Shown in pieces: positions 309 through 28,745 of a DNA stretch of 64,000 nt (position 1 is its first letter; each line of letters begins with the position of its first letter). This stretch comes from Acidobacteriota bacterium. GTDB taxonomy: Bacteria; Acidobacteriota; Vicinamibacteria; Vicinamibacterales; CAVVIG01. Below the pieces are notes generated by a model. The model was not told the DNA's origin, made no database searches, and saw only the letters and a program-made list of their open reading frames with translations. The position numbers were made by a program, and so were the translations under genes. Location of the stretch: NCBI GenBank assembly GCA_003222395.1, contig QHWB01000074.1:1-64000 (forward strand). The letters are read 5' to 3'.

Positions 309-384
309 CGCTCGGCTGAAAGCCTCGCTACATAAAGCCTTGCGCTACATATGCTCATGGTAGGGCGAGCCTTTCAGGCGAGCC
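309..384. repeat. Two copies of the GCGAGCCTTTCAGG palindromic repeat, opposite orientations
   Basis: Right after the remnant's stop codon lies an inverted copy (CGCTCGGCTGAAAGCCTCGC), and at 361-384 a forward copy built on GGCGAGCCTTTCAGGCGAGC. The same family recurs at 8960-9048, 27277-27338 and 28700-28745. From here to the next gene (about 220 bases) I see no supportable gene, only an unrecognised reading frame from 461. Confidence 0.7.
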
Positions 385-605
385 TGGATCCCGATCGCCT
401 CCCATTCGGTCCTGACCGGGTGGGAGGCTTTCCGACAATGAGAACTCACAATCGTTTACCGTGACGGGGTCTGGGCGCATCGATGTGGATCCGGCGCGCA
501 TCTACGGCATCATCGCGGGCATCGTGCCGAAGCAGCAGGAACTGAAGAAACCGGCAATGGTCGTTGATCGTTGGTCCGGACAGCCGTCAGAGAAGGAGGC
601 AGGCG

Positions 606-1045: not shown

Positions 1046-2059
1046 TCAGCGAACGACCCGGATGCGATGCGCCTCGCTGTCCGACACGTACAACGTGCCG
1101 TTCGAGTAGAGCACGCCATGCGGGCGTGACAGGCGGCACGCGAGCGGATCGGATTCCGGACCGTCTCCGCGCTGGCCCGTGCCCAACACGGTCGTGATCG
1201 TTCCCGTCTTCAGATCGATGCGGCGGACGACATGATTCTCGGTATCGGCGGCGTAGAGGCTTCCGTCGCTCGCGTACGTCAGACCCTTCGGCCCTCCGAG
1301 CTTCGCGCGGACGGCCGGTCCGCCGTCGCCGCTGTAGCCCTGCTCGCCGGTGCCGGCGATGTGGTGCAGCGTCTTCGTCGCGCGATCGATTCGGTAGATC
1401 GCGTTGCCTTCGCGCAGCGCGAGAAACAGATCGCCGTTCGGCGCGAAGGCGATCGTCCGCGGTCCGTTGAGCGGCGTGCCGGCGAGCGGCGCGCCGTCCG
1501 GCGTCGGCTTCGCTTCGCCTGTTCCCGCATGGGTTGTGATCGTGCCGGTCTCCAGATCCAGCCGTCGAATGCGATGGTTGCCGATGTCGCAGATCAGCAG
1601 GCTGCCATCGCGATCGATCGCGACGCTGTGCGGCTGACGGAGTTGCGCCTTCGCGCCGGGACCGCCGTCGCCCGCGAAGCCGGCCACGCCTGTGCCGGCG
1701 ACCGTCGAAATGATGCCGCTCGCGTGGTCGATCTTGCGGATGACGTGATTGTCGCGCTCCGCGACGTAGATGTTGCCGGCCGGGTCGAACTGAATCTCGT
1801 GCGGCATGTTGAGCGCCGCGTCGACGGCCGGCCCGCCGTCGCCGCGATACCCGCGCTCGCCGCTGCCGGCGATCGTCGTCAGCTTCTTCGTCTTCAGGTC
1901 GAGGCGCCGGATCCGCTGGTTGTCGAGATCGCAGAAATACAGCGCGCCGTCGGGACCGATGGCCATGCCGTACGGGTTGTTGACCTGGAGATCCGAGTAC
2001 CCGCGCGTGCCGGTGCCGATGAGCGTCGAGACGAGCGCCGCCAGCAGGAAGCGGATCAT
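1046..2059 (-). CDS. Secreted NHL-repeat beta-propeller protein
   Basis: 337 residues with a short hydrophobic N-terminus (MIRFLLAALVSTLIGTG) that may act as an export signal. The rest is NHL-type propeller repeats with the recurring cores GYRGDGGPA, GFAGDGGPG and GYSGDGGPA (TIAGSGERG, TVAGTGVAG, HIAGTGEQG) alternating with NHVIRKID / NHRIRRLD / NHVVRRID. About six blades are visible. Its ATG overlaps the stop of the upstream PD40-amidohydrolase gene (ATGA), so the two are translationally coupled and probably act in the same secreted or periplasmic process. No catalytic residue is evident; a binding or scaffold role is inferred. Confidence 0.85.
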   Translation of the reverse strand: MIRFLLAALVSTLIGTGTRGYSDLQVNNPYGMAIGPDGALYFCDLDNQRIRRLDLKTKKLTTIAGSGERGYRGDGGPAVDAALNMPHEIQFDPAGNIYVAERDNHVIRKIDHASGIISTVAGTGVAGFAGDGGPGAKAQLRQPHSVAIDRDGSLLICDIGNHRIRRLDLETGTITTHAGTGEAKPTPDGAPLAGTPLNGPRTIAFAPNGDLFLALREGNAIYRIDRATKTLHHIAGTGEQGYSGDGGPAVRAKLGGPKGLTYASDGSLYAADTENHVVRRIDLKTGTITTVLGTGQRGDGPESDPLACRLSRPHGVLYSNGTLYVSDSEAHRIRVVR

Positions 2060-5000
2060 CGCGCCTGGCTGCTCGTCGTCTTCGCCGCGGCGGTGCCGCG
2101 CAGAAGCTGGTCGAGCTCGTACACGCGCCCGTTCACGATCACCCGCTTCACCTTGTGCAGGTTCGCGACGTCAGCCAGCGGATCGCCGTCGATCATGATG
2201 AGGTCCGCGAGCTTGCCGGCCTCGATCGTGCCCGCGTCGAGATTCAGCGCCTTCGCCGGATTCACCGTCGCTGCCTTGAGCGCGTCGTAGGTCGACATTC
2301 CCGCCATCCCGTACGACATCAGCTCGCCGTGGAGGTTGATCGCGTTCGGGGTATCGGTGCCGGCAACGATGAGGGCGCCGGCGCGCATCGCGTCGAGAAC
2401 CATCTTGCCGCTGCCGGCGGTCGGATCGACCTGAGCGGCGAATGCGTTCACCTGTCGCGAGGCGAGCTGCTCCTGAATCCACTGCGGATACAGCTTGAAG
2501 CGTGGATCGTTCAGCAGCTCCGGCTCGCGCTCGAGGAGGCGGCGTGTGCCAGCCGGTGAGATCATCGGACAGAAAGTGCGGCCGCTCTTCCCGAACAGTT
2601 GAATGACGTCTTCGTACGACCGCTGCAGCGTCGCGATCTTCGGCGAGTAACCGCGGCGGCTGGTCGCGCCTGTGTGCTCCGTATTGTCGACGCCGACGAA
2701 CGCCGCCGGATAGATCTCGTGCGTCGCGACCGGGATGCCGATGCTGTGGGCGAACTCGGTCATCCGCTTCTGCTGCAGATCGGGCAGGCGTACGTAGCTC
2801 TTGAGGAGGTCGTACTGCAGCGCTTTCGCGCGCTGGAGCTCCATCTCCAGCTGACCGACAGTCGACACCGCGATGCCCATCTTGTAGTACACGCGTCCCC
2901 ACTCCGTGAGATAACCAGTGCCGTAGACGCGCGGCCCCGGCCGGACGCCCGCTTCGCCCGCCTCGCGATCCTCGACGTACTCGTACGGAGTGTTGCCCGG
3001 GCTGCGCACCGTCGTGATGCCGAACGCGAGCCAGGCGCGACCCTGCGATTCGCCGTAGTCCTTCTGCAGATGCGAGTGGAACTCGACGAGCCCCGGCATC
3101 ACCGACAGAGTCGACGCATCGATCACCTGGCCGCCGGCGTGATTCGCGTCCGCATGCGGAACGACCGAGGCGATCTTGTTTCCTTCGATCGTGATGTCGA
3201 CGTTCGTCCGAACCTCGGCGCTTTTCATGTCGACGAGCCGGCCCGCATGAACGACAACATGGGTCGCCGGAACATCCGGCGTGTACTTCAAATCGAGCGG
3301 CACCGTGCGCGTTTCGCCCGACTCGATGTCGATGATCCGCAGCTTGTCGAGCGATTGATACAGGATGTGTCGCGAATCGCCCGCCCAGCTCGGCGCGTGC
3401 GCGCTCTCGCTCGTGATGTGGCGCGGCGGACCGAGCGGCTCGCCCGACACGGCGACCGGCCAGACGGCGAGAACGCCTTCGTAGATTGCCGCCATCTTCG
3501 TCCCGTCCGGCGACCACACCGGTCCGCACCCTCCGCGCGAGTCGATCGAGAGTGTTGGGATCGGGGCGTACCACTTGTCCTGCGACCCGGGCGGCGCGGG
3601 CCTTTCAGGCCCGCGATCGGCGTCGGCCCCGCGATCGCGCCCCTCAAAGGGCCGCGCCACATCTAAGAGCCGCGCTACGTCGATGGTCAACACCTGATTC
3701 GTGCCTTCGCGGAATCTCCGCGTGAACGGTGCCACTTCGGCGAGCGCGATCCGCTTTCCGTCGGGCGACCACGTCGGTGTGCCCGGCTGCGCGAGCGTGT
3801 CGTGCACCTTCGTCACAGCGCCGCTCGCGACATCGAGCACCGACATGTTCGCGACGCGCCACATGCCGTTCACGTCGAAGAACGCGATGCGCTTCCCGTC
3901 GGGCGACCACGTGGCCCCCTGCGGCTGCGTGGTCAGATGCGTCACCTGTCGGCTCCGCCCCGTTTTCATGTCGCGGATCCAGAGCTGCAGATGCTCGCTC
4001 TCCTTGTCGGACGAATAGACCAGCTGCGATCCGTCGGGCGACCACGCGGGATCGGTGTCCAGCGCCGCGTCCTTCGTGACGTCGACGGGCTTGCCGCCGA
4101 CCGGCATCACGTAGATGTCGCCGACAGCGGCAAAGGCGATCTGTCTGCCGTCGGGCGAGATCACCGGCCGCACGATGCCGAGCGCCGGCTTCGGAGTTGT
4201 CGAGGTGAAGTCGCGCTTCCTGCGGACGTACGTTCCCGCCACGCGCGTCACCTGCATCGTCGCCGAGAACTCGATCGTCTGCGCGGCGCCGCCGCCGATC
4301 GAACGCTTGCGAATCTTGCCGTCGGAGACGTAGTAGAACTCGCTGGCTGACGACCCGGGAATGAATGACGGCCTGAACGCAAAGGCGTTCTCGGCGCCGG
4401 TCAGCGGATTGCCATCGACTTCGAGCCGGCTCTCGCGCGGCAGCGCGGCGTTGTACACGATCTGGCCGGCGGGACCCCACGACGGCGAATCGACACGACC
4501 TCGCGACGTCGAAACTTTCCGCTCCGCACCGGTCGCGACGTTCACCGCCCACACCGACGCGCCGTCCTCGCGGGTCGACGCGAACGCGATCTCCTTGTCG
4601 TCCGGCGACCAGCTCGGCATGTAGTCGTCCGCCGGATTCTTCGTCAGCTGCCGCAGCTCACCGCTGCGGACGTCGAGGATCCAGATGTTGTAGTCGCTCC
4701 CCAGCGCGTCGCCGCGGTCCGACGAGAACGCGATCCGCGTCCCGTCGTGCGACCAGATCGGCTCGCGATCGTCGTACGGTCCCCACGTCAGCTTCCGCTG
4801 ATTCGACCCGTCCGGCGCCACGGACCAGATGTCGTATCCGCCGTCTCGATACGCAAAGAACGTGATCGTTCTGCCGTCGGGCGACCACGTCGGCTGCCGC
4901 GCGTCGTTGAAGAGGTCTGTGATCCGCTTCGCTGCGCCGCCACTCGACGGCAGCGTCCAGATGCTTCCCTGCATGTCGATGGCGAGCATCCGGCCGTCAG

Positions 5001-5127
5001 GCGAGACGGCGACCGACATCGAGGTTCCTTCATGCACCGTCACGTCGATGAACGGAGAAGAGGCCGGCGCGGCGCCGAGCGCAGCCACCAGAGCGAGACT
5101 CGCAGCGAGAACGACCGCCCGCGACAT
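2056..5127 (-). CDS. PD40 beta-propeller / amidohydrolase fusion, exported
   Basis: 1023 residues. Signal peptide MSRAVVLAASLALVAALGAA, then a TolB/PD40-type propeller with many blades of the form (I/S)PDGRxIAF and WSPDGxxI (residues about 30-620), then a metal-dependent amidohydrolase domain (about 625-1005): VMPGLVEFHSHLQKDYGESQ carries the HxH metal pair, VATHEIYP a further His, VAGTDTPNAINLHGEL the metal Asp region, and a C-terminal ADLIMIDGDPL strand. A start with GGAGGATCC upstream fits. An in-frame palindromic element adds ARPFEGRDRG...PERPAP at about residues 488-511, in a linker between blades. An ATTCTATA box (TATAGAAT on this strand) at 5145-5152 could be the -10. Coupled to the NHL gene downstream. 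Function inferred: imidazolonepropionase/dipeptidase-like hydrolase of unknown substrate. Confidence 0.9.
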   Translation of the reverse strand: MSRAVVLAASLALVAALGAAPASSPFIDVTVHEGTSMSVAVSPDGRMLAIDMQGSIWTLPSSGGAAKRITDLFNDARQPTWSPDGRTITFFAYRDGGYDIWSVAPDGSNQRKLTWGPYDDREPIWSHDGTRIAFSSDRGDALGSDYNIWILDVRSGELRQLTKNPADDYMPSWSPDDKEIAFASTREDGASVWAVNVATGAERKVSTSRGRVDSPSWGPAGQIVYNAALPRESRLEVDGNPLTGAENAFAFRPSFIPGSSASEFYYVSDGKIRKRSIGGGAAQTIEFSATMQVTRVAGTYVRRKRDFTSTTPKPALGIVRPVISPDGRQIAFAAVGDIYVMPVGGKPVDVTKDAALDTDPAWSPDGSQLVYSSDKESEHLQLWIRDMKTGRSRQVTHLTTQPQGATWSPDGKRIAFFDVNGMWRVANMSVLDVASGAVTKVHDTLAQPGTPTWSPDGKRIALAEVAPFTRRFREGTNQVLTIDVARLLDVARPFEGRDRGADADRGPERPAPPGSQDKWYAPIPTLSIDSRGGCGPVWSPDGTKMAAIYEGVLAVWPVAVSGEPLGPPRHITSESAHAPSWAGDSRHILYQSLDKLRIIDIESGETRTVPLDLKYTPDVPATHVVVHAGRLVDMKSAEVRTNVDITIEGNKIASVVPHADANHAGGQVIDASTLSVMPGLVEFHSHLQKDYGESQGRAWLAFGITTVRSPGNTPYEYVEDREAGEAGVRPGPRVYGTGYLTEWGRVYYKMGIAVSTVGQLEMELQRAKALQYDLLKSYVRLPDLQQKRMTEFAHSIGIPVATHEIYPAAFVGVDNTEHTGATSRRGYSPKIATLQRSYEDVIQLFGKSGRTFCPMISPAGTRRLLEREPELLNDPRFKLYPQWIQEQLASRQVNAFAAQVDPTAGSGKMVLDAMRAGALIVAGTDTPNAINLHGELMSYGMAGMSTYDALKAATVNPAKALNLDAGTIEAGKLADLIMIDGDPLADVANLHKVKRVIVNGRVYELDQLLRGTAAAKTTSSQAR
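3594..3664 (-). repeat. Protein-coding palindromic element, copy 1 (inside the PD40-amidohydrolase)
   Basis: On the coding strand the element runs GTGGCGCGGCCCTTTGAGGG, CGCGATCGCGG, an extra GCCGACGCCGATCGCGG, then GCCTGAAAGGCCCGCGCC. It is composed of two hairpins, GCGGGCC/GGCCCGC and GCGCGGCCC/GGG(G)CGCGC, around CGATCG. It is a multiple-of-three insertion that keeps the frame and encodes ARPFEGRDRG-ADADRG-PERPAP. Copy 2 in the helicase gene lacks the internal 18-base repeat but uses the same frame. Confidence 0.85.
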
Positions 5128-8611: not shown

Positions 8612-8962
8612 ATGAATCGCGATCGCACGGAGCTGCTGCAGGGGACGCTCGACATGCTGATCCTGCGGACGCTCCTCCTCGGAGCGGCGCACGGCCACGA
8701 GATCGCCAGACACATTCAGCGCACCACCGACGACGTGCTGAAGCCCGAACACGGATCGCTCTATCCGGCGTTGCATCGGCTCGAACGCAAAGGGCTCGTC
8801 GTGTCGAAGTGGGACGCGCACCGCGAGCACAACCGCGAGTGCAAGTACTACCGTCTGACGCCGGCCGGGCGTAAGCAGCTGACCGCCTCGCAATCGAAAT
8901 GGAAACGGCTGCAGGAAGCCATCGCGCGCGTGATGAGCGCCGCAGCCAGAGCCGACGTCTAG
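8603..8962 (+). CDS. PadR-family transcriptional regulator
   Basis: 119 residues. The PadR winged-helix domain fills most of the chain: LLQGTLDMLILRTLLLG, HGHEIARHIQRTT, then the family signature HGSLYPALHRLERKGLV and a wing with KYYRLTPAGRKQL. The C-terminal helix is short, as in the small PadR subfamily. Starts at 8603 or 8612 are both possible; both lie within the palindromes. The downstream ADOP permease is the usual partner of this regulator type in Acidobacteriota, so it probably controls that gene and itself. Its TAG stop codon is the first three bases of a palindromic repeat. Confidence 0.92.
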   Translation: MPTMNRDRTELLQGTLDMLILRTLLLGAAHGHEIARHIQRTTDDVLKPEHGSLYPALHRLERKGLVVSKWDAHREHNRECKYYRLTPAGRKQLTASQSKWKRLQEAIARVMSAAARADV

Positions 8963-9048
8963 CGCGAGCCTTTCAGCCGTGCGTCCGCGTAGCGCGAGGC
9001 GTTCAGCCGAGCGTTGATGGGAGCGCAAGGCTTTCGCCGAGCGGGAGC
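8960..9048 (+). repeat. Three tandem degenerate copies of the GCGAGCCTTTCAGCCGAGCG repeat
   Basis: Units start at TAGCGCGAGCCTTTCAGCCG, TAGCGCGAGGCGTTCAGCCG and GAGCGCAAGGCTTTCGCCGA. They fill the whole space between the PadR and ADOP genes. The first unit supplies the stop codon of the PadR gene. Belongs to the same family as the repeats at 309-384, 27277-27338 and 28700-28745. Confidence 0.75.
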
Positions 9049-11659: not shown

Positions 11660-11701
11660 AGAATCGCTTTGCGATATGCTGAGGACTCCCCGGGATCCCG
11701 C

Positions 11702-16129
<4,428 letters not shown>

Positions 16130-16758: not shown

Positions 16759-17793
16759 TTAGACGCCCGACATTCCACGGAAGTTACGCGGAATCTCCAT
16801 CCTACACGGGCGGCAGTCGGATTTCGACCTCAGCTGTAAGACCGCGAGGTGAGCCGTTTGGTCTGTGACGTTTCGTGACGAAGACCGACCCTGGGGCCGG
16901 ACGGTTACCTGAACAGCTTTCCTGTACTTCACTGGGATCCCGTTGAGCACCGCCGGCCGATACCGCCACGCCTTCGCTGTCGCCAACGCGAGCGCATCGT
17001 ACGTGGGGCTCACCGATTTGCGCATCATCGCGGTCTCGACCTGGCCGTTCTCGTCGATGATGATCTCGATCATCCCGACTTTGCCGACGACGACCTGACC
17101 TGGATACGCCGGCAGTTCCTGCACGATCACGACCGGCGGCAGCACGTTCGGATCGGCGGCGCTGTAGATATTCGGAATCGCGGGCGGCGGAAGCGGCACG
17201 GCCGCCGGAGCAGGCGGCGGCGCATCGGCCTTGAAGCGCTCGGCCGGCAGCGGCGGCGGCTCGGCTGCATTCACAGCAAGATCGCGGAACCCGATCGCGA
17301 GCGTTTTGAGATCCGAGAGCGGCGGCTGATTGGCGGCGGCCACGGCGTCCGGATCGTTCATCATGTCGAGCACCTGTCTGAAGGCCTGCGACGCCGCCAT
17401 GAAATTTTTCCGATCGTAGGTCGCTTTTGCTTCCGTGTATTTCTGCTGAATGATGCCGGGCAGCATGCGGCGTCGAACGTCGGCAAATGCGGCGCGCACG
17501 CGCGGCGACACGTCGCTGTCGGCGGGATGGAAGTTCGGCTCGCCGGCGATGACCGCTTCGATGGCGCGATCGGCTTCAGCGGTGCGCCCCAGCGCCAGCA
17601 GGCAGAACGCGCGGTACTGCTCGATGGCGCGCACGTCGTCCTGCGATCGGTTCGTTTCCGGCAGCCGGTTCAGGACGGCAAGCGCATCTTCGTACGCCGC
17701 CGACGCGTAGAGATCGCGGGCGGAGCTCAGCGAGTCCTGCGCCGCGGCGAACGCGGGAACCAGGATGAGGAGCCCGACGACCAGAAATCTCAT
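16759..17793 (-). CDS. Exported protein with TPR-like N-domain and TonB C-terminal domain
   Basis: 344 residues from MRFLVVGLLILVPAFAAAQ (signal peptide). Residues about 20-175 are helical, TPR-like (SSARDLYASAAYEDALAVLN, YRAFCLLALGRTAEADRAIE). A Pro-rich link (ADAPPPAPAAVPLPPPAIPN) leads to a TonB C-terminal domain (PAYPGQVVVGKVGMIEIIID, VETAMMRKSVSPTYDALALA, WRYRPAVLNGIPVKYRKAVQ), followed by about 40 Arg/Ser-rich residues not usual for the domain, possibly read-through of a lost stop. GGAAGAAGC precedes the ATG. The ATG overlaps the stop of the pseudokinase gene (ATGA), so both form one unit. Confidence 0.85.
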   Translation of the reverse strand: MRFLVVGLLILVPAFAAAQDSLSSARDLYASAAYEDALAVLNRLPETNRSQDDVRAIEQYRAFCLLALGRTAEADRAIEAVIAGEPNFHPADSDVSPRVRAAFADVRRRMLPGIIQQKYTEAKATYDRKNFMAASQAFRQVLDMMNDPDAVAAANQPPLSDLKTLAIGFRDLAVNAAEPPPLPAERFKADAPPPAPAAVPLPPPAIPNIYSAADPNVLPPVVIVQELPAYPGQVVVGKVGMIEIIIDENGQVETAMMRKSVSPTYDALALATAKAWRYRPAVLNGIPVKYRKAVQVTVRPQGRSSSRNVTDQTAHLAVLQLRSKSDCRPCRMEIPRNFRGMSGV

Positions 17794-20036
17794 TGCTTCT
17801 TCCTTAGATCGACGCTCACGCGCGCCGGCGCCTTCAGCGTCACAGTCACGGCTTGCCGTTGTTCGCCGAGCTCGGGATTGCGGAAGACGATCTCGTGCGG
17901 GCCAATCGGCAGCGTCAGGTTGCCGATCGGCGTCTCGCCCATGCGCTGACCTTCGACCCAGACCTCGGCCCACGGCATCGCGTTGACCGCGATCGATCCG
18001 GTCGGCCAGTTCATGGTGATCGGCGCGATCTTTCCGGGCGGCACCTGCACGGTGCGGACGACGCGGTAGCCGAGCGTCTCGTTGACGATCTCGATCTCGT
18101 GGCGGCCGGCCGAAACCATGATGCGGTCGCTCAGCGTCGTGCCGAGCATCTTCTTGTTCTCGAACAGCTGCAGCTCCACCGGCGCCTGAACGCTCACCCA
18201 GCCGGAAATCGGCGCGCCCTCGGCCGGCGCGATCGGCACGACGAGCGATGCGGTCTGGCCCGCCTCGATGGTCACCGTCTGCTTGACGGTAGCGATGTCG
18301 CTTTCGAGCACGATCGCGTGCTCGCCCGGCGTGAGCGCATCGATGAGCAGCGGCGCCTTCCCTTTCACGGCGCCGTCGATCGTCACCTGCGCGCCTGCGG
18401 GTTCGGTCCGAATCTGCAGCTGGCCGAACGCGGCAACGCTTCTCGGCAGCTCGACGTACTGCGAAATCTGCTGTCCCGCCGCGATGGTGATCGGCATCGT
18501 TCGCGGCTCGCCGCTGTCGGTGCGGAGCTCCACGCTGTGCGGACCGGGATTGAGCGCGAGCGTCAACGGCGTCACGCCGCGCGACTGACCGTCCACGAAC
18601 AGCTGCGCGCCGACCGGGTTCGTCGACACGCTGAACGTGCCGGTCGCGGAGACGGTCGCTGGCGCGAAGAGGAACTTTCGGGCGGCGAATCCGCCGAGCG
18701 CGAGCACGACGATGGCGGCCGCCGCGATTGCCGCCATCGGCAGCGAGCGGCGAGGCGCTTCGATCTCGAGTTCGAGCTCGTCGATGACCGGCGGCTCGTG
18801 AGCGCCAAACCGGAATTCGTGCCGCGGCTCCGGCTTCGGCTCCAGCCTCGGCTCGGGCCTCGACTCGTGTTTCGGGTCGTGCTTCAGGTCGTGTTTCGGT
18901 TCGTGTTTCAGTTCGAGCTTCGGCTCGTGCTTCGGATCCGGTCTGAGCTCGACCTTCGGCTCCGGCCTGACGTGCTGCGCCGGTTCGAACTTGTCATCCG
19001 TCTTTGGTTCCTGTCTGGGCTGCGGCCTGGGTTCAATTCTCGCTTCGAGCCTCGGTTCCGGCCTTGGTTCGAGCTTCGGCGCGGCCACGAACGGCGCCGG
19101 CATCGGCGGCGGCGCGGCATGTGGCTGCACCGACGCGATCGGTTCGTCCTCGGTCGTCTGGATTTCAGACGTGTCGATTTCCGCGACTTCCTCTTCGTCG
19201 CCCGACAACACTTTTTCGAGGTCGTTGCGCGCCTCGAGCGCAGACGCGAAGCTGTTGCGCGGATCGAGCTGCAGCGCGCGTGCGATCCAGGCGCGGAGGC
19301 CCGGCGGCATCGGCTCGAGCTCGCCCGTCGACGAGTTCGCCCACGCGGACGACAGCACGTCGGCAATCTGCGTCGGATACTCTTCATCGGTCAGCAGCCG
19401 TCCGAGGATCAGCGACAGCGACACGATGCCGACCTGCGTCACGTCGGTCCGCTGATCGAAGCGCGGCATCGATCCCGTCGGCGACGGCGGCATCGCGATG
19501 CGCAGCTCGCTCCAGTACCGATCGCGCGAGTAGTGCAGCTGCTCGATCGCGGCGCCGAGCACGTGCTCGACGATGATGACGCGCGCGTTGGGCGTGATGA
19601 CGATCCGCTCGGCGCCGATCGCGCCGTGCGCGATGTCGCGCGCCGTCTCGTGCAGTACGGAAACTGCGGAGACCAGCTGGCGAATCAGGTGGACTGCCGC
19701 GTTGATGTCGATCGTCGGCCGATCCGCCTTCGCGAGCAGCGTCGACAGCCGCACGCCGCGGATGGACTCGGAGACGACGGCAAGCGTCGACGCGGCATCG
19801 TTCAGCCGATCGACGCTGCGCACGCGCGCGTAGTAGGTGTGGCGGAATCCGGCGAGACGGCTCGCGCGCTCGCGCAGCGCGAACTCGAACGACGGAATCG
19901 CGGTCAGCTCGGCTCGCAGGCACAGGCGTTCGAGCGTTTCGGTTCCCGTCGCATCGGTGACGCGGCGCCGCTCGCCGAGACCGTCCTGGAAGACGACCGA
20001 CGCCGTAGACGTACCTGTCGCGAGCGCAGGATCCAT
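17790..20036 (-). CDS. Pseudokinase-PEGA transmembrane protein
   Basis: 748 residues. Residues 1-285 resemble a Ser/Thr kinase fold (SVLHETARDIAHGAIGAERI, then GIVSLSLILGRLLTDEEYPT), but the HRD catalytic loop reads AHGAIGAE and no DFG is seen, so it is probably inactive. Then comes a charged spacer of repeated EP(K/R)xE(P/L) units (about 320-420), a transmembrane helix (LPMAAIAAAAIVVLALGGFA), and three to four PEGA domains outside (STNPVGAQLFVDGQSRGVTP; TEPAGAQVTIDGAVKGKAPL; VNAMPWAEVWVEGQRMGETP). GAGG lies 7 bases before the ATG. Cytoplasmic sensing coupled to wall- or surface-binding PEGA domains is inferred. Coupled by ATGA to the TonB-like gene. Confidence 0.85.
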   Translation of the reverse strand: MDPALATGTSTASVVFQDGLGERRRVTDATGTETLERLCLRAELTAIPSFEFALRERASRLAGFRHTYYARVRSVDRLNDAASTLAVVSESIRGVRLSTLLAKADRPTIDINAAVHLIRQLVSAVSVLHETARDIAHGAIGAERIVITPNARVIIVEHVLGAAIEQLHYSRDRYWSELRIAMPPSPTGSMPRFDQRTDVTQVGIVSLSLILGRLLTDEEYPTQIADVLSSAWANSSTGELEPMPPGLRAWIARALQLDPRNSFASALEARNDLEKVLSGDEEEVAEIDTSEIQTTEDEPIASVQPHAAPPPMPAPFVAAPKLEPRPEPRLEARIEPRPQPRQEPKTDDKFEPAQHVRPEPKVELRPDPKHEPKLELKHEPKHDLKHDPKHESRPEPRLEPKPEPRHEFRFGAHEPPVIDELELEIEAPRRSLPMAAIAAAAIVVLALGGFAARKFLFAPATVSATGTFSVSTNPVGAQLFVDGQSRGVTPLTLALNPGPHSVELRTDSGEPRTMPITIAAGQQISQYVELPRSVAAFGQLQIRTEPAGAQVTIDGAVKGKAPLLIDALTPGEHAIVLESDIATVKQTVTIEAGQTASLVVPIAPAEGAPISGWVSVQAPVELQLFENKKMLGTTLSDRIMVSAGRHEIEIVNETLGYRVVRTVQVPPGKIAPITMNWPTGSIAVNAMPWAEVWVEGQRMGETPIGNLTLPIGPHEIVFRNPELGEQRQAVTVTLKAPARVSVDLRKKQ

Positions 20037-23855: not shown

Positions 23856-24758
23856 ATGACTCGCACATCCTTGATAACTGTTCCGCTCGCCCTCGTCGGG
23901 GCACTGACGATCGGTTCGCCTTTCGCATCGGCCGATCAGGAGCGCCAGCACCGCCGCGGCGAAGCGTTGCCGCGCGCCGAGGCGCAGCCGCAGGGCGACT
24001 CGCAGTCGCGCGGCGATGCGCAGCGGCGCACTGAATCGCAGCCGCGACGCGAGATCCAGCCGCAACGCGAGACCCAATCGCAACGCGAGACCCGGCCGCA
24101 ACGCGAGGCCCGGCCGCAAGGCGAGGCCCGGCCGCGCGCCGAAGCGGCGCCGGCACCCGCGCCGCGCGTCGACAACAACGTCCAGCGTCGCGAGGCGCCG
24201 CGCGCCGAAACCTTCGCGCCACGCGCCGTGCCGCGGATCGAGCCTCGCCGCATCGAGCCGCGCGACGACAACCGATACCGCTACGACGGCCGATACCGCG
24301 ACACGAATCGATATCGCTATGATGGCCGGTCGTACGTGTACACGCGTCCGCGCTACTTCGGCTACAACATCTACCGGCCGTACGTGTTCCGTCCGCAGTA
24401 TCGACTCGGCCTCGGCGTGTTCATCGGCTATCCGGTTCCGTACTCGTACTCCTACGCGTACCCGGTCCCGGTGTATGGCTACCGCGCGCCGGTCGCGCCG
24501 GTGTTCATCGGACCCGGATCGACCGCGTATGGCGGCATCGCGCTGGACATCTGGCCTGACGACGCGGCGGTCTACGTCGATGGCGCCTACGCGGGAATCG
24601 TTCGCGACTTCGACGGCACAAGGCAGCCGCTGACGCTCGTCGCCGGCACGCACCAACTCGAGATCACAGGGCCGGCAGGCTACGCGCCGCTCGTCTTCGA
24701 CGTCACGGTGCAGCCCGGACAGGTGATTCCGTATCAGGGGGATCTGCAGCCGTACTGA
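23856..24758 (+). CDS. Exported PEGA protein with Gln/Arg/Glu repeat region
   Basis: 300 residues. Signal peptide MTRTSLITVPLALVGALTIG...FASA, then an 80-residue low-complexity region of repeated (Q/R)PQ(R/G)E(T/A) units, a Tyr/Arg-rich region (RYRYDGRYRDTNRYRYDGRS; PRYFGYNIYRPYVFRPQYRL) and a C-terminal PEGA domain (GIALDIWPDDAAVYVDGAYA; GTHQLEITGPAGYAPLVFDV). PEGA domains are thought to hold proteins at the cell surface. The repeats are also visible as a 15-18-base DNA period (CAACGCGAGACC-type words), so copy number could vary. No operon partner. Confidence 0.8.
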   Translation: MTRTSLITVPLALVGALTIGSPFASADQERQHRRGEALPRAEAQPQGDSQSRGDAQRRTESQPRREIQPQRETQSQRETRPQREARPQGEARPRAEAAPAPAPRVDNNVQRREAPRAETFAPRAVPRIEPRRIEPRDDNRYRYDGRYRDTNRYRYDGRSYVYTRPRYFGYNIYRPYVFRPQYRLGLGVFIGYPVPYSYSYAYPVPVYGYRAPVAPVFIGPGSTAYGGIALDIWPDDAAVYVDGAYAGIVRDFDGTRQPLTLVAGTHQLEITGPAGYAPLVFDVTVQPGQVIPYQGDLQPY

Positions 24759-24877
24759 AATCCAATGAAGCAATCAGGCAATCCAATGAAGCAATCAGGC
24801 AATCCAATGAAGCAATCAGCAATCCAATGAAGCAATCAGCAATCCAATGAAGCAATCAGCAATCTGCAATCAGCAAT
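24759..24877 (+). repeat. 20/21-bp tandem repeat, five copies plus a fragment
   Basis: Unit AATCCAATGAAGCAATCAGC (first two units carry an extra G). Starts at 24759, 24780, 24801, 24821 and 24841, then a partial unit to 24877. It begins one base after the stop codon of the PEGA gene. AT-rich and nearly identical between copies, so recent. Confidence 0.9.
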
Positions 24878-25638: not shown

Positions 25639-27342
25639 TTACGAAGCCCGTCGAGAGACCACCTTACCGCCGACCATCGTCAGAGACGGGCGCATCCGCT
25701 CGACGTCCTTGTCCGGCACGGTCAGGATGTCTTCCGGCACAACGACGAGGTCGGCCAGCTTGCCCGGCTCGATCGATCCCTTGAGCGTTTCCTCGAACGT
25801 CAAGTACGCGTTGTTGATCGTTTCGACCTGCAGCGCCGCCTTCCTGCTGATCTTCTGATCGGCCCCCATCACGCCGCCGCTGATCGTGCCGCGCGACACG
25901 AAATGGTAGACGACCCAAAAAGGCGGATACGGCACGACTGGTGAATCGGTGCCGCCGGCGACGACAAATCCACGATCGATGTAGTCGCGCATCGGCGTCA
26001 CGCGGTGGGCGCGCGGCGCGCCCCAGTACTTCACGAGGCTCGGGCCCGCGAGATACAGGTGATTCTGAGCGGAAATGACGAGATCCAACGCTTTCATGCG
26101 CGGGAACTGATCGGGCTCGACGATGAACCCGTGCTCGATGGTCCAGCGTTTGCCGCGGATCGATTGCTCGGCGCTGGCCGATTCGTATGCGGCGAGCACT
26201 TCGTCGATTGCCGCGTCGCCGACCGCGTGCGTGGCAACGCGCCATCCTTCGCGATTCAGCTCCTTGACGACGTCGGTGAACGGCGCCTGCTTCATCGTGT
26301 TCACGCCACGGAACGTGCCGCCCTCACCCCACGGCTCCGCGTAGGGTTCGCGCATCCACCCGCCCTCGAACCCGCCGTCGACGCCGAGCTTCATGCCGCC
26401 GACGCGGAGCCACTCATCGCCTTCGTCGGGCTTCACGCCCGATGCGGCGATCGCCCGGCGCATCGACGCGGCGCTGTCGGCGTTGAAGCGCATCAGCTGA
26501 TTGACGCGGATGGTGAGGACGCCGCGGCGCGCCATCTCCTGCAGCAACCGGTACTGCTCGACCGACGCGCCGGGATACCGGATGCTGGTCAGTCCCGCCT
26601 CGTTCAACTTGCGGTGCTGCGCCTGCAGCGCCTCGATGGTCAGCTTCGGCGCCGCCGGCAAGGTGACGAGCGCCTTCGCGCGATCGATCAGCTCACCGTT
26701 CAGTTCACCGTGCTCGTCGCGCGTGATGCGTCCGCCGGCCGGCTGCGGCGTATCCTTTTTTATATTCCACTTCGCCAGCGCCGCCGAATTGAGAACGTAC
26801 TCATGTCCGCCGCGGACGACCACGACCGGATTGTTCGGCGAGACGCTGTCCAGATCGTGGCGATACGGCAGTCGCTGTTCCTCGAGCTGCGCTTCGTGCC
26901 AGTCGCTGTTCGTCACGATGACCTCGCCCGCAGCGCTCTGCTGCACGCGAGCTTTGATCGCCGTGAGCACATCAGGGATCGATCGCGCGCGCGACAGATC
27001 GACGCCCGGTCCGCCGCCGGCGTCGTGCAGGTGACCGTCTGCCAGCCCCGGAATCACCGTCTGGCCGTGCAGATCGATCGTCGTCGTGTTCGGCCCCGCG
27101 AGCGTCCTGATGTCGGCGTCCGTGCCGACGGCGGTGAAGCGGCCATCCTTGATCGCGATCGCCTGCGCGATCGAAAAGCGCGCGTCGACCGTAATCACGT
27201 GGCCATTGACGAGAATCGTGTCGGGCGGCGCCGCCTGCGCGTGCAACAAGCTGGCGGCGACAAAGAACAACAGGTAGCGCGAGGCTTTTAGCCGAGCGTT
27301 CGGCTCGCCTGAAACGCTCGCCCTATCGGTGGTTCCAATCAT
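25639..27342 (-). CDS. YtcJ-like amidohydrolase (amidohydrolase 3 family)
   Basis: 567 residues. The hydrophobic stretch YLLFFVAASLLHAQ is an export signal, but 22 residues precede it (MIGTTDRASVSGEPNARLKA), which are encoded by a palindromic repeat; a TTG start just before LFFVAAS may be the original start. The mature chain begins PPDTILVNGHVITVD and has the metal motif TVIPGLADGHLHD, a GGHEYVLNSAAL substrate-site segment, THAVGDAAIDEVL, IEHGF and GGTDSPVVPYPP with the metal Asp, ending ADLVVVPEDIL. This family (YtcJ/LAF3-like) cleaves amides of unknown nature. Divergent from the HtrA-like gene. Confidence 0.88.
   Translation of the reverse strand: MIGTTDRASVSGEPNARLKASRYLLFFVAASLLHAQAAPPDTILVNGHVITVDARFSIAQAIAIKDGRFTAVGTDADIRTLAGPNTTTIDLHGQTVIPGLADGHLHDAGGGPGVDLSRARSIPDVLTAIKARVQQSAAGEVIVTNSDWHEAQLEEQRLPYRHDLDSVSPNNPVVVVRGGHEYVLNSAALAKWNIKKDTPQPAGGRITRDEHGELNGELIDRAKALVTLPAAPKLTIEALQAQHRKLNEAGLTSIRYPGASVEQYRLLQEMARRGVLTIRVNQLMRFNADSAASMRRAIAASGVKPDEGDEWLRVGGMKLGVDGGFEGGWMREPYAEPWGEGGTFRGVNTMKQAPFTDVVKELNREGWRVATHAVGDAAIDEVLAAYESASAEQSIRGKRWTIEHGFIVEPDQFPRMKALDLVISAQNHLYLAGPSLVKYWGAPRAHRVTPMRDYIDRGFVVAGGTDSPVVPYPPFWVVYHFVSRGTISGGVMGADQKISRKAALQVETINNAYLTFEETLKGSIEPGKLADLVVVPEDILTVPDKDVERMRPSLTMVGGKVVSRRAS
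27277..27338. repeat. GCGAGGCTTTTAGCCGAGCG / GGCTCGCCTGAAACGCTCGC palindromic repeat pair
   Basis: Two copies of the GCGAGCCTTTCAGG family face each other (TAGCGCGAGGCTTTTAGCCG then GAGCGTTCGGCTCGCC and TGAAACGCTCGCCCTA). They overlap the beginning of the leftward amidohydrolase reading frame and supply its first residues. Confidence 0.75.
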
Positions 27343-28312: not shown

Positions 28313-28702
28313 ATGCGTGTGATTCTCGTCGGAGGGCCCGCGGATCGCGATCGGCTGCGCGCGCAGATGAACGGCTCGATGACCGTCGTCGCAGAGTTTC
28401 CGACCATCGCGGCGGCCCGACGATCCGACCTCGACGTCGACGCGATGCTGATCGCAGCGGACACCGTCCACGCCGAGGCTCTCGACGACGACGATTCGCT
28501 CGACGAGCCGTTGACGCCGCGCGAGATTCAGGTGCTGGAGCTGCTCGCGGAGGGATTGCCGAACAAGACCATCGCCGCGCGGCTCGGCATCAGCGACCAG
28601 ACGGTGAAGTTCCACGTCGCGTCGATCTCCGGCAAGCTCGGCGCAGCCAACCGCACGGACGCCGTCCGCCGCGCGGTCAGACGCGGGCTCATCTCGCTGT
28701 AG
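28313..28702 (+). CDS. LuxR-type regulator with truncated receiver-like N-domain
   Basis: 129 residues. The C-terminal half is a LuxR/NarL HTH (LTPREIQVLELLAEGLPNKT, IAARLGISDQTVKFHVASIS, KLGAANRTDAVRRAVRRGLI). The first 60 residues resemble the beginning of a receiver (MRVILVGGPADRDRLRAQM... MLIAADTV), but are too short for a full one and lack the phospho-Asp strand. Its ATG directly follows the stop of the HtrA-like pseudoprotease gene. May therefore be controlled by a protein partner rather than by phosphorylation (inference). Its TAG stop is the start of a palindromic repeat. Confidence 0.88.
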   Translation: MRVILVGGPADRDRLRAQMNGSMTVVAEFPTIAAARRSDLDVDAMLIAADTVHAEALDDDDSLDEPLTPREIQVLELLAEGLPNKTIAARLGISDQTVKFHVASISGKLGAANRTDAVRRAVRRGLISL

Positions 28703-28745
28703 CGCGAGCCTTTCAGGCGAGCGCCGAGCCGCGGTGCGTTCAGGG
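28700..28745 (+). repeat. TAGCGCGAGCCTTTCAGG repeat at the end of the LuxR gene
   Basis: TAGCGCGAGCCTTTCAGGCG followed by AGCGCCGAGC and GCGGTGCGTTCAGGG. The first three bases are the LuxR stop codon, and the far end reaches the stop of the convergent HtrA gene. Confidence 0.75.

Follow-up and report, generated by a model that had tools for sequence, protein, structure and literature searches.

The window, by which I mean the whole 64,000-nucleotide stretch of soil Acidobacteriota DNA analysed here, contains two unrelated genes that each carry a palindromic element read as part of the protein, together with repeats of a sister class:

2056..5127, minus strand: host gene 1, PD40 beta-propeller plus amidohydrolase; the insert is residues 490-512, in a low-confidence propeller loop
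3591..3660, minus strand: head-to-head REP pair, class B, 70 nt (extra 18 nt), within the PD40-amidohydrolase gene; encodes VARPFEGRDRGADADRGPERPAP
11669..16129, plus strand: host gene 2, Lhr-type helicase; the insert is residues 960-976, between two winged-helix beta-hairpin strands
14546..14597, plus strand: head-to-head REP pair, class B, canonical 52 nt, within the Lhr helicase gene; encodes VARPFQGRDRGPERPAPH
360..386, plus strand: class A REP (GTAG type), repeat-population context (repeat family D6)
8959..9015, plus strand: two class A REPs, mostly intergenic
27274..27298, plus strand: class A REP overlapping a minus-strand gene at its start
28699..28725, plus strand: class A REP between convergent genes

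The first-pass annotation of this DNA had reported the same palindromic element in a PD40-amidohydrolase gene and an Lhr helicase gene. Both were found, with cores that match beyond chance: the window has 6 matches to the 20-mer GCGGGCCTTTCAGGCCCGCG with up to three mismatches, where chance predicts 0.01. Pfam agrees with the naming of both hosts, recognising PD40 repeats and an amidohydrolase domain in the first and DEAD, Helicase_C, WH_Lhr, DEAD_assoc, WH3_Lhr and WH4_Lhr in the second. The loci originally placed at 3594-3664 and 14548-14604 stand, with boundaries moved by a few bases to 3591-3660 and 14546-14597, and copy 1 does carry the 18 extra bases described earlier (70 versus 52 nt), which leave the frame intact. 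The elements had also been said to have lengths divisible by three and to share a frame; the in-frame reading holds, but the palindromes of 52 and 70 nt are themselves both 1 mod 3, so the full inserts must carry a few bases beyond the palindrome. Both lengths are spans of the palindrome rather than of the full insert, whose exact ends are readable only against a near-identical empty site.

Each host protein was searched against 60 relatives. Orthologues of both hosts align on either side of the insert, the alignment breaks at the insert, and most orthologues have short loops there. Because they lack the two inserts, both peptides were acquired, and an ancestral origin is refuted. Where relatives of the Lhr gene are named, they are metagenome bins of Acidobacteria, mainly gp6 and gp7. 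AlphaFold2 places the Lhr insert between two antiparallel winged-helix strands (model residues 90-94 and 110-113), which puts it on the beta-hairpin tip of the winged helix. The amidohydrolase insert is modelled in a propeller loop of low confidence (model residues 252-274). The peptide common to these two unrelated proteins is very probably there because the same kind of mobile REP pair landed in frame in both genes.

REP anatomy, copy number and the RAYT

Each window element consists of two facing 25-nt hairpins with a GTGG head, an 8-bp stem and a short loop; the 25-nt unit folds with a stem of at least 8 bp at -17.9 kcal/mol. A search of the genome (7.74 Mb in 118 contigs) recovered 334 class B units with up to three mismatches and 0 with the reversed-pattern control, which excludes a chance similarity of two genes. 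Nearly all listed class B units have the head GTGG or GTAG, the stems of these REPs are pure GC, and class B copies show compensating stem variants such as CGCGGGCC/GGCCCGCG, CGCGGCCC/GGGCCGCG and GGCGGCCC/GGGCCGCC. Head-to-head pairs, most frequently spanning 52 nt, occur inside and between genes, as well as single units and tandem arrays. The sister class A, GTAGCGCGAGCCTTTCAGGCGAGCG, has a GTAG head and a stem with a tandem G-A mismatch, and gives 148 matches in 1.66 Mb. Other genomes of the order contain few close matches to class B: no more than 14, versus 72 here at the same threshold. In two relatives (G017 and G024) several class B units are headed GTCG rather than GTGG or GTAG. The base directly before the GTAG/GTGG head is A in 1% of cases against a background of 17% (242 REP units, 1.66 Mb), possibly the mark of a target or junction rule, and a search for a simple target motif at the REP junctions gave nothing beyond this missing A.

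Repeats of other kinds are also present. Five head-to-tail copies of an AT-richer unit of 20-21 nt, GCAATCCAATGAAGCAATCAG, occupy window positions 24757-24864, directly after the stop of ORF 23856-24758; 12-nt repeats at 18817-19083, within ORF 17790-20036, coincide with a low-complexity protein stretch; and the most frequent 18-mers include a heptamer array, (ATCAGCT)n (contigs C34, C118, C64, C1 and C25).

The genome has one Y1_Tnp gene. It clears the NCBIfam cut-off for REP-associated tyrosine transposase (RAYT), contains the HUH (HLH) and Tyr motifs, and lies between class A REP arrays, one of 17 units upstream and an inverted one of 4 units downstream. I found no RAYT flanked by class B, the genome's single RAYT adjoining class A. 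The RAYTs of relatives are bordered on both sides by other GTAG/GTGG REPs: that of G026 is flanked by GTAGCGCGACCCTTTCAGGGTCGCG, a close variant of class B, and that of G014 by a REP family also present in its own Lhr gene. Because of the REP-pair anatomy, the 334 copies and the sister class A flanking the sole RAYT, this is a GTAG/GTGG REP-RAYT system. The mobility of class B is deduced from its copies and context, and this RAYT, or one since lost, presumably moved both classes. An enzyme whose gene adjoins class A may nevertheless not act on class B; GTGG instead of GTAG abolished or altered cutting in the enzymes studied (PMC8266576).

The elements resemble known GTAG REPs and REPINs (PMC3733652, PMC3116915, PMC8266576) in their hairpins of 20-40 nt, GTAG/GTGG head, high copy number and head-to-head pairs, in the REP-flanked RAYT gene in the genome, and in that some copies lie in frame inside genes; GTGG heads, for their part, dominate one REP family of O. 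terrae (PMC3733652). They differ in forming their own acidobacterial sequence family and in that class B itself does not flank a RAYT, while this analysis puts numbers on in-gene density and single-frame bias, and the same Lhr loops are struck by many families across phyla. Behaviour like that of Rickettsia palindromic elements had been suggested for them. The suggestion is borne out as far as the in-frame spread of a palindromic repeat inside genes is concerned, since RPE-1, RPE-4 and RPE-6 are likewise in-frame palindromic repeats in unrelated genes that give a similar peptide each (PMC3733652, PMC10969869), but kinship with the CGTC-tagged class is contradicted by the GTAG/GTGG head and the RAYT link. 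RPE-4 and RPE-6 end in CGTC, their 8-9 bp stems begin with AT pairs at the base, and they are not known to have a dedicated transposase, whereas here a GTGG/GTAG head, GC stems and a RAYT are found. Neither the CGTC (or TGTC/CCTC) end nor the AT pairs at the stem base by which that class is recognised (PMC3733652) occur here; presence in frame in functional genes is shared with it, but is not a family-defining sequence feature. Bacterial MITEs (e.g. ERIC) are also small, non-autonomous palindromic elements that are sometimes in frame in genes (PMC10969869), but they have insertion-sequence terminal inverted repeats and usually a target duplication, whereas the likely mobiliser here is an HUH enzyme.

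Placement and reading frame inside genes

Placement was analysed in 1.664 Mb, 21% of the genome. Genes were predicted by a home-made finder, a three-periodic coding model trained on long frames of the same 1.664 Mb, and a copy was counted as interior when its REP cluster lay at least 90 nt inside a predicted gene. A longest-open-frame criterion was dropped, several frames being open in this GC-rich genome, and was replaced by the coding model and Pfam. Interior clusters number 34 of 111, whereas 75.6% of bases are interior; the other 77 are not. REPs are thus depleted within genes yet by no means missing from them. Twenty-one host genes have Pfam support: besides the two in the window they encode MutS, prolyl oligopeptidase, two spermidine-synthase-like proteins, galactokinase, an amino acid kinase, an aromatic amino acid lyase, a melibiase-like protein, DUF1223, an M20 peptidase, two MFS transporters, prephenate dehydrogenase, acetamidase/formamidase, alanine racemase, a desulfurase-FdhD fusion, an FtsX-type permease, a PurL-like (AIRS) protein and an Lhr paralogue. 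In several of them the insertion point separates two recognised domains (MutS I/II, alanine racemase N/C, galactokinase signature/GHMP domain). The genome's second Lhr-like protein (C64:77028-82010) has decayed REP copies near residue 1371 (RSAKSLALH, GRAFQARDA).

In 30 of 34 in-gene clusters the first base of the element is also the first base of a codon, against 17.5 +/- 2.8 expected if all stop-free frames were used equally. The favoured frame gives VARPFQGR... forward, ...PERPAP or ...PERLAL in reverse, and VARPFQGRD...GPERPAP from pairs. Counted per gene it is used throughout in 25 of 29, and the FtsX-type permease is the sole exception among the 21 Pfam-supported hosts. The remaining frames of GTAG-headed REPs are largely shut by TAG and TGA; GTGG-headed REPs have a second frame open, with the more hydrophobic peptide WRGPFRAAIAGLKGPRH (GRAVY -0.55 versus -1.48). 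Selection against the other peptides, together with stop codons, would account for the bias. Hydrophilicity was considered as its only cause; it fits class B pairs but fails for class A single units. Unit spacing modulo 3, compared between in-gene and intergenic copies, points in the same direction as the frame bias, a result partly built in, as one frame is closed by stop codons and the units of a tandem array are not independent of one another.

The best explanation, to which I assign a probability of about 0.85, is that these are RAYT-moved GTGG/GTAG REP pairs whose in-frame landings in surface loops were retained. The RAYT, an HUH tyrosine transposase, would most likely copy or move REP pairs in trans, cutting single-stranded DNA beside the hairpin. 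The majority of copies would be kept outside genes, and a minority would survive in genes, those that landed in a surface loop, free of stops in the frame used and with an overall insert length that is a multiple of three, since the protein tolerates a short flexible peptide in the loop. Their retention inside genes is probably near-neutral.

The most serious competitor, though an unlikely one, concerns the frame bias alone: the cut site of the transposase could favour one codon phase in a GC-rich genome, with no selection on the peptide. The scarcity of A before the REP head does indicate that some target or junction rule exists, but single units of both orientations lie mostly in the favoured frame, even though this puts their head boundaries in different codon phases. 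It is less probable still, and quite doubtful, that the REP peptides are adaptive, their gain being favoured in repair helicases or other enzymes through changed activity or partner binding. The hosts include DNA repair genes (MutS and two Lhr proteins), as in other species (PMC3733652), and Lhr sites are struck in several phyla, but the hosts are functionally mixed, the peptides at the same Lhr tip are unrelated in sequence, and copies are depleted in genes overall.

Removal or bypass of the inserts at the RNA or protein level, such that the peptide is absent from the proteins, could draw on the very stable fold of the 52-nt insert RNA (-46 kcal/mol). However, skipping would make the open frame and the consistent use of one frame unnecessary, and Rickettsia proteins with comparable inserts are reported to be expressed (cited in PMC3733652), so this account is very improbable. 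The likelihood that the two proteins have the peptide in common as an ancestral domain or by convergent chance similarity is close to nil: the element exists in hundreds of DNA-level copies, in both orientations, genic and intergenic, and the segment is absent from orthologues, whose empty sites refute it.

Recurrent insertion sites in Lhr and the amidohydrolase

The same loops are occupied by other repeats in relatives. At the Lhr wing tip, relative G009 has a class-A-like REP array and G014 has GTAGTGTCCGGC-type REPs, the family that flanks its own RAYT; the amidohydrolase loop of G024 holds a different GTAG-headed REP. A comparison of 80 further Lhr genes, with record titles from Acidobacteria, Gemmatimonadetes, Proteobacteria and others, revealed more palindromic inserts at the wing tip. 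Three, from other genera or phyla, are proven multicopy in their own genomes: a near-perfect palindrome of ~80 nt in a Rhodanobacter, whose unit GTAGGAGCGCACCCTGTGCGCGATG occurs 111 times; GTCATCCCGAGCGTAGCGAGGGACC in a gp7 Acidobacterium, with 59 matches; and CCCTCTCCCC-NNN-GGGGAGAGGG in Dyella and Rhodanobacter species, with 13 to 249 copies per genome. Pyrinomonadaceae have yet other strongly folding inserts there. Several sequence families at one Lhr tip cannot stem from a single event.

A scan of 81 Lhr proteins for insertions of at least 12 residues with a strong hairpin (z <= -3.5) found 25: 11 near residue 235, 6 near 974, 3 near 1068 and 5 elsewhere, so that the linker near residue 235 is struck more often than the wing tip. 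Because the scan tallies residues outside the shared core, these counts miss short inserts, including the window's own, and since some inserts are common to related species they represent fewer independent events. It is somewhat more probable than the opposite that a few loops, above all the Lhr wing tip (~residue 974) and linker (~235), serve across phyla as landing sites at which many unrelated palindromic repeats independently turned coding, and that in-gene REP insertion is a general, recurrent source of new loops with a preferred frame.

In-gene REP insertion is a kind of event already known: in-gene GTAG REPs, also in DNA repair genes, have been published (Di Nocera 2013, PMC3733652), and two Xanthomonas species have two different REPs at about the same recB site (PMC3733652). 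Three points look new, and a literature search found no prior report of them: a quantified single-frame bias, such a density of copies in an acidobacterial genome, and the recurrent occupation of the same Lhr loops by several families across phyla. Here, then, is a bacterium with mobile hairpins in dozens of ordinary enzymes, and the Lhr wing tip, the Lhr linker and the amidohydrolase propeller loop are identified as sites of independent uptake in different lineages. Whether such peptides are neutral passengers or raw material for proteins can be tested directly by setting empty versions of one loop against versions with different inserts.

Two further Lhr observations concern inserts of other form or position. 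In G010 and G017 (L037, L047) the wing tip carries an AT-rich direct-repeat insert, ATTCCAAATTCCAAATTCC, with the peptide FQIPNSKFQI, so tolerance there is not limited to palindromes. Lhr of G061 (L203) has a REP-like head-to-head palindrome, TTCCGCCTGAAGGCGGAAGCCACG..., upstream of the wing tip and in frame (FRLKAEAT...VASAFRRK).
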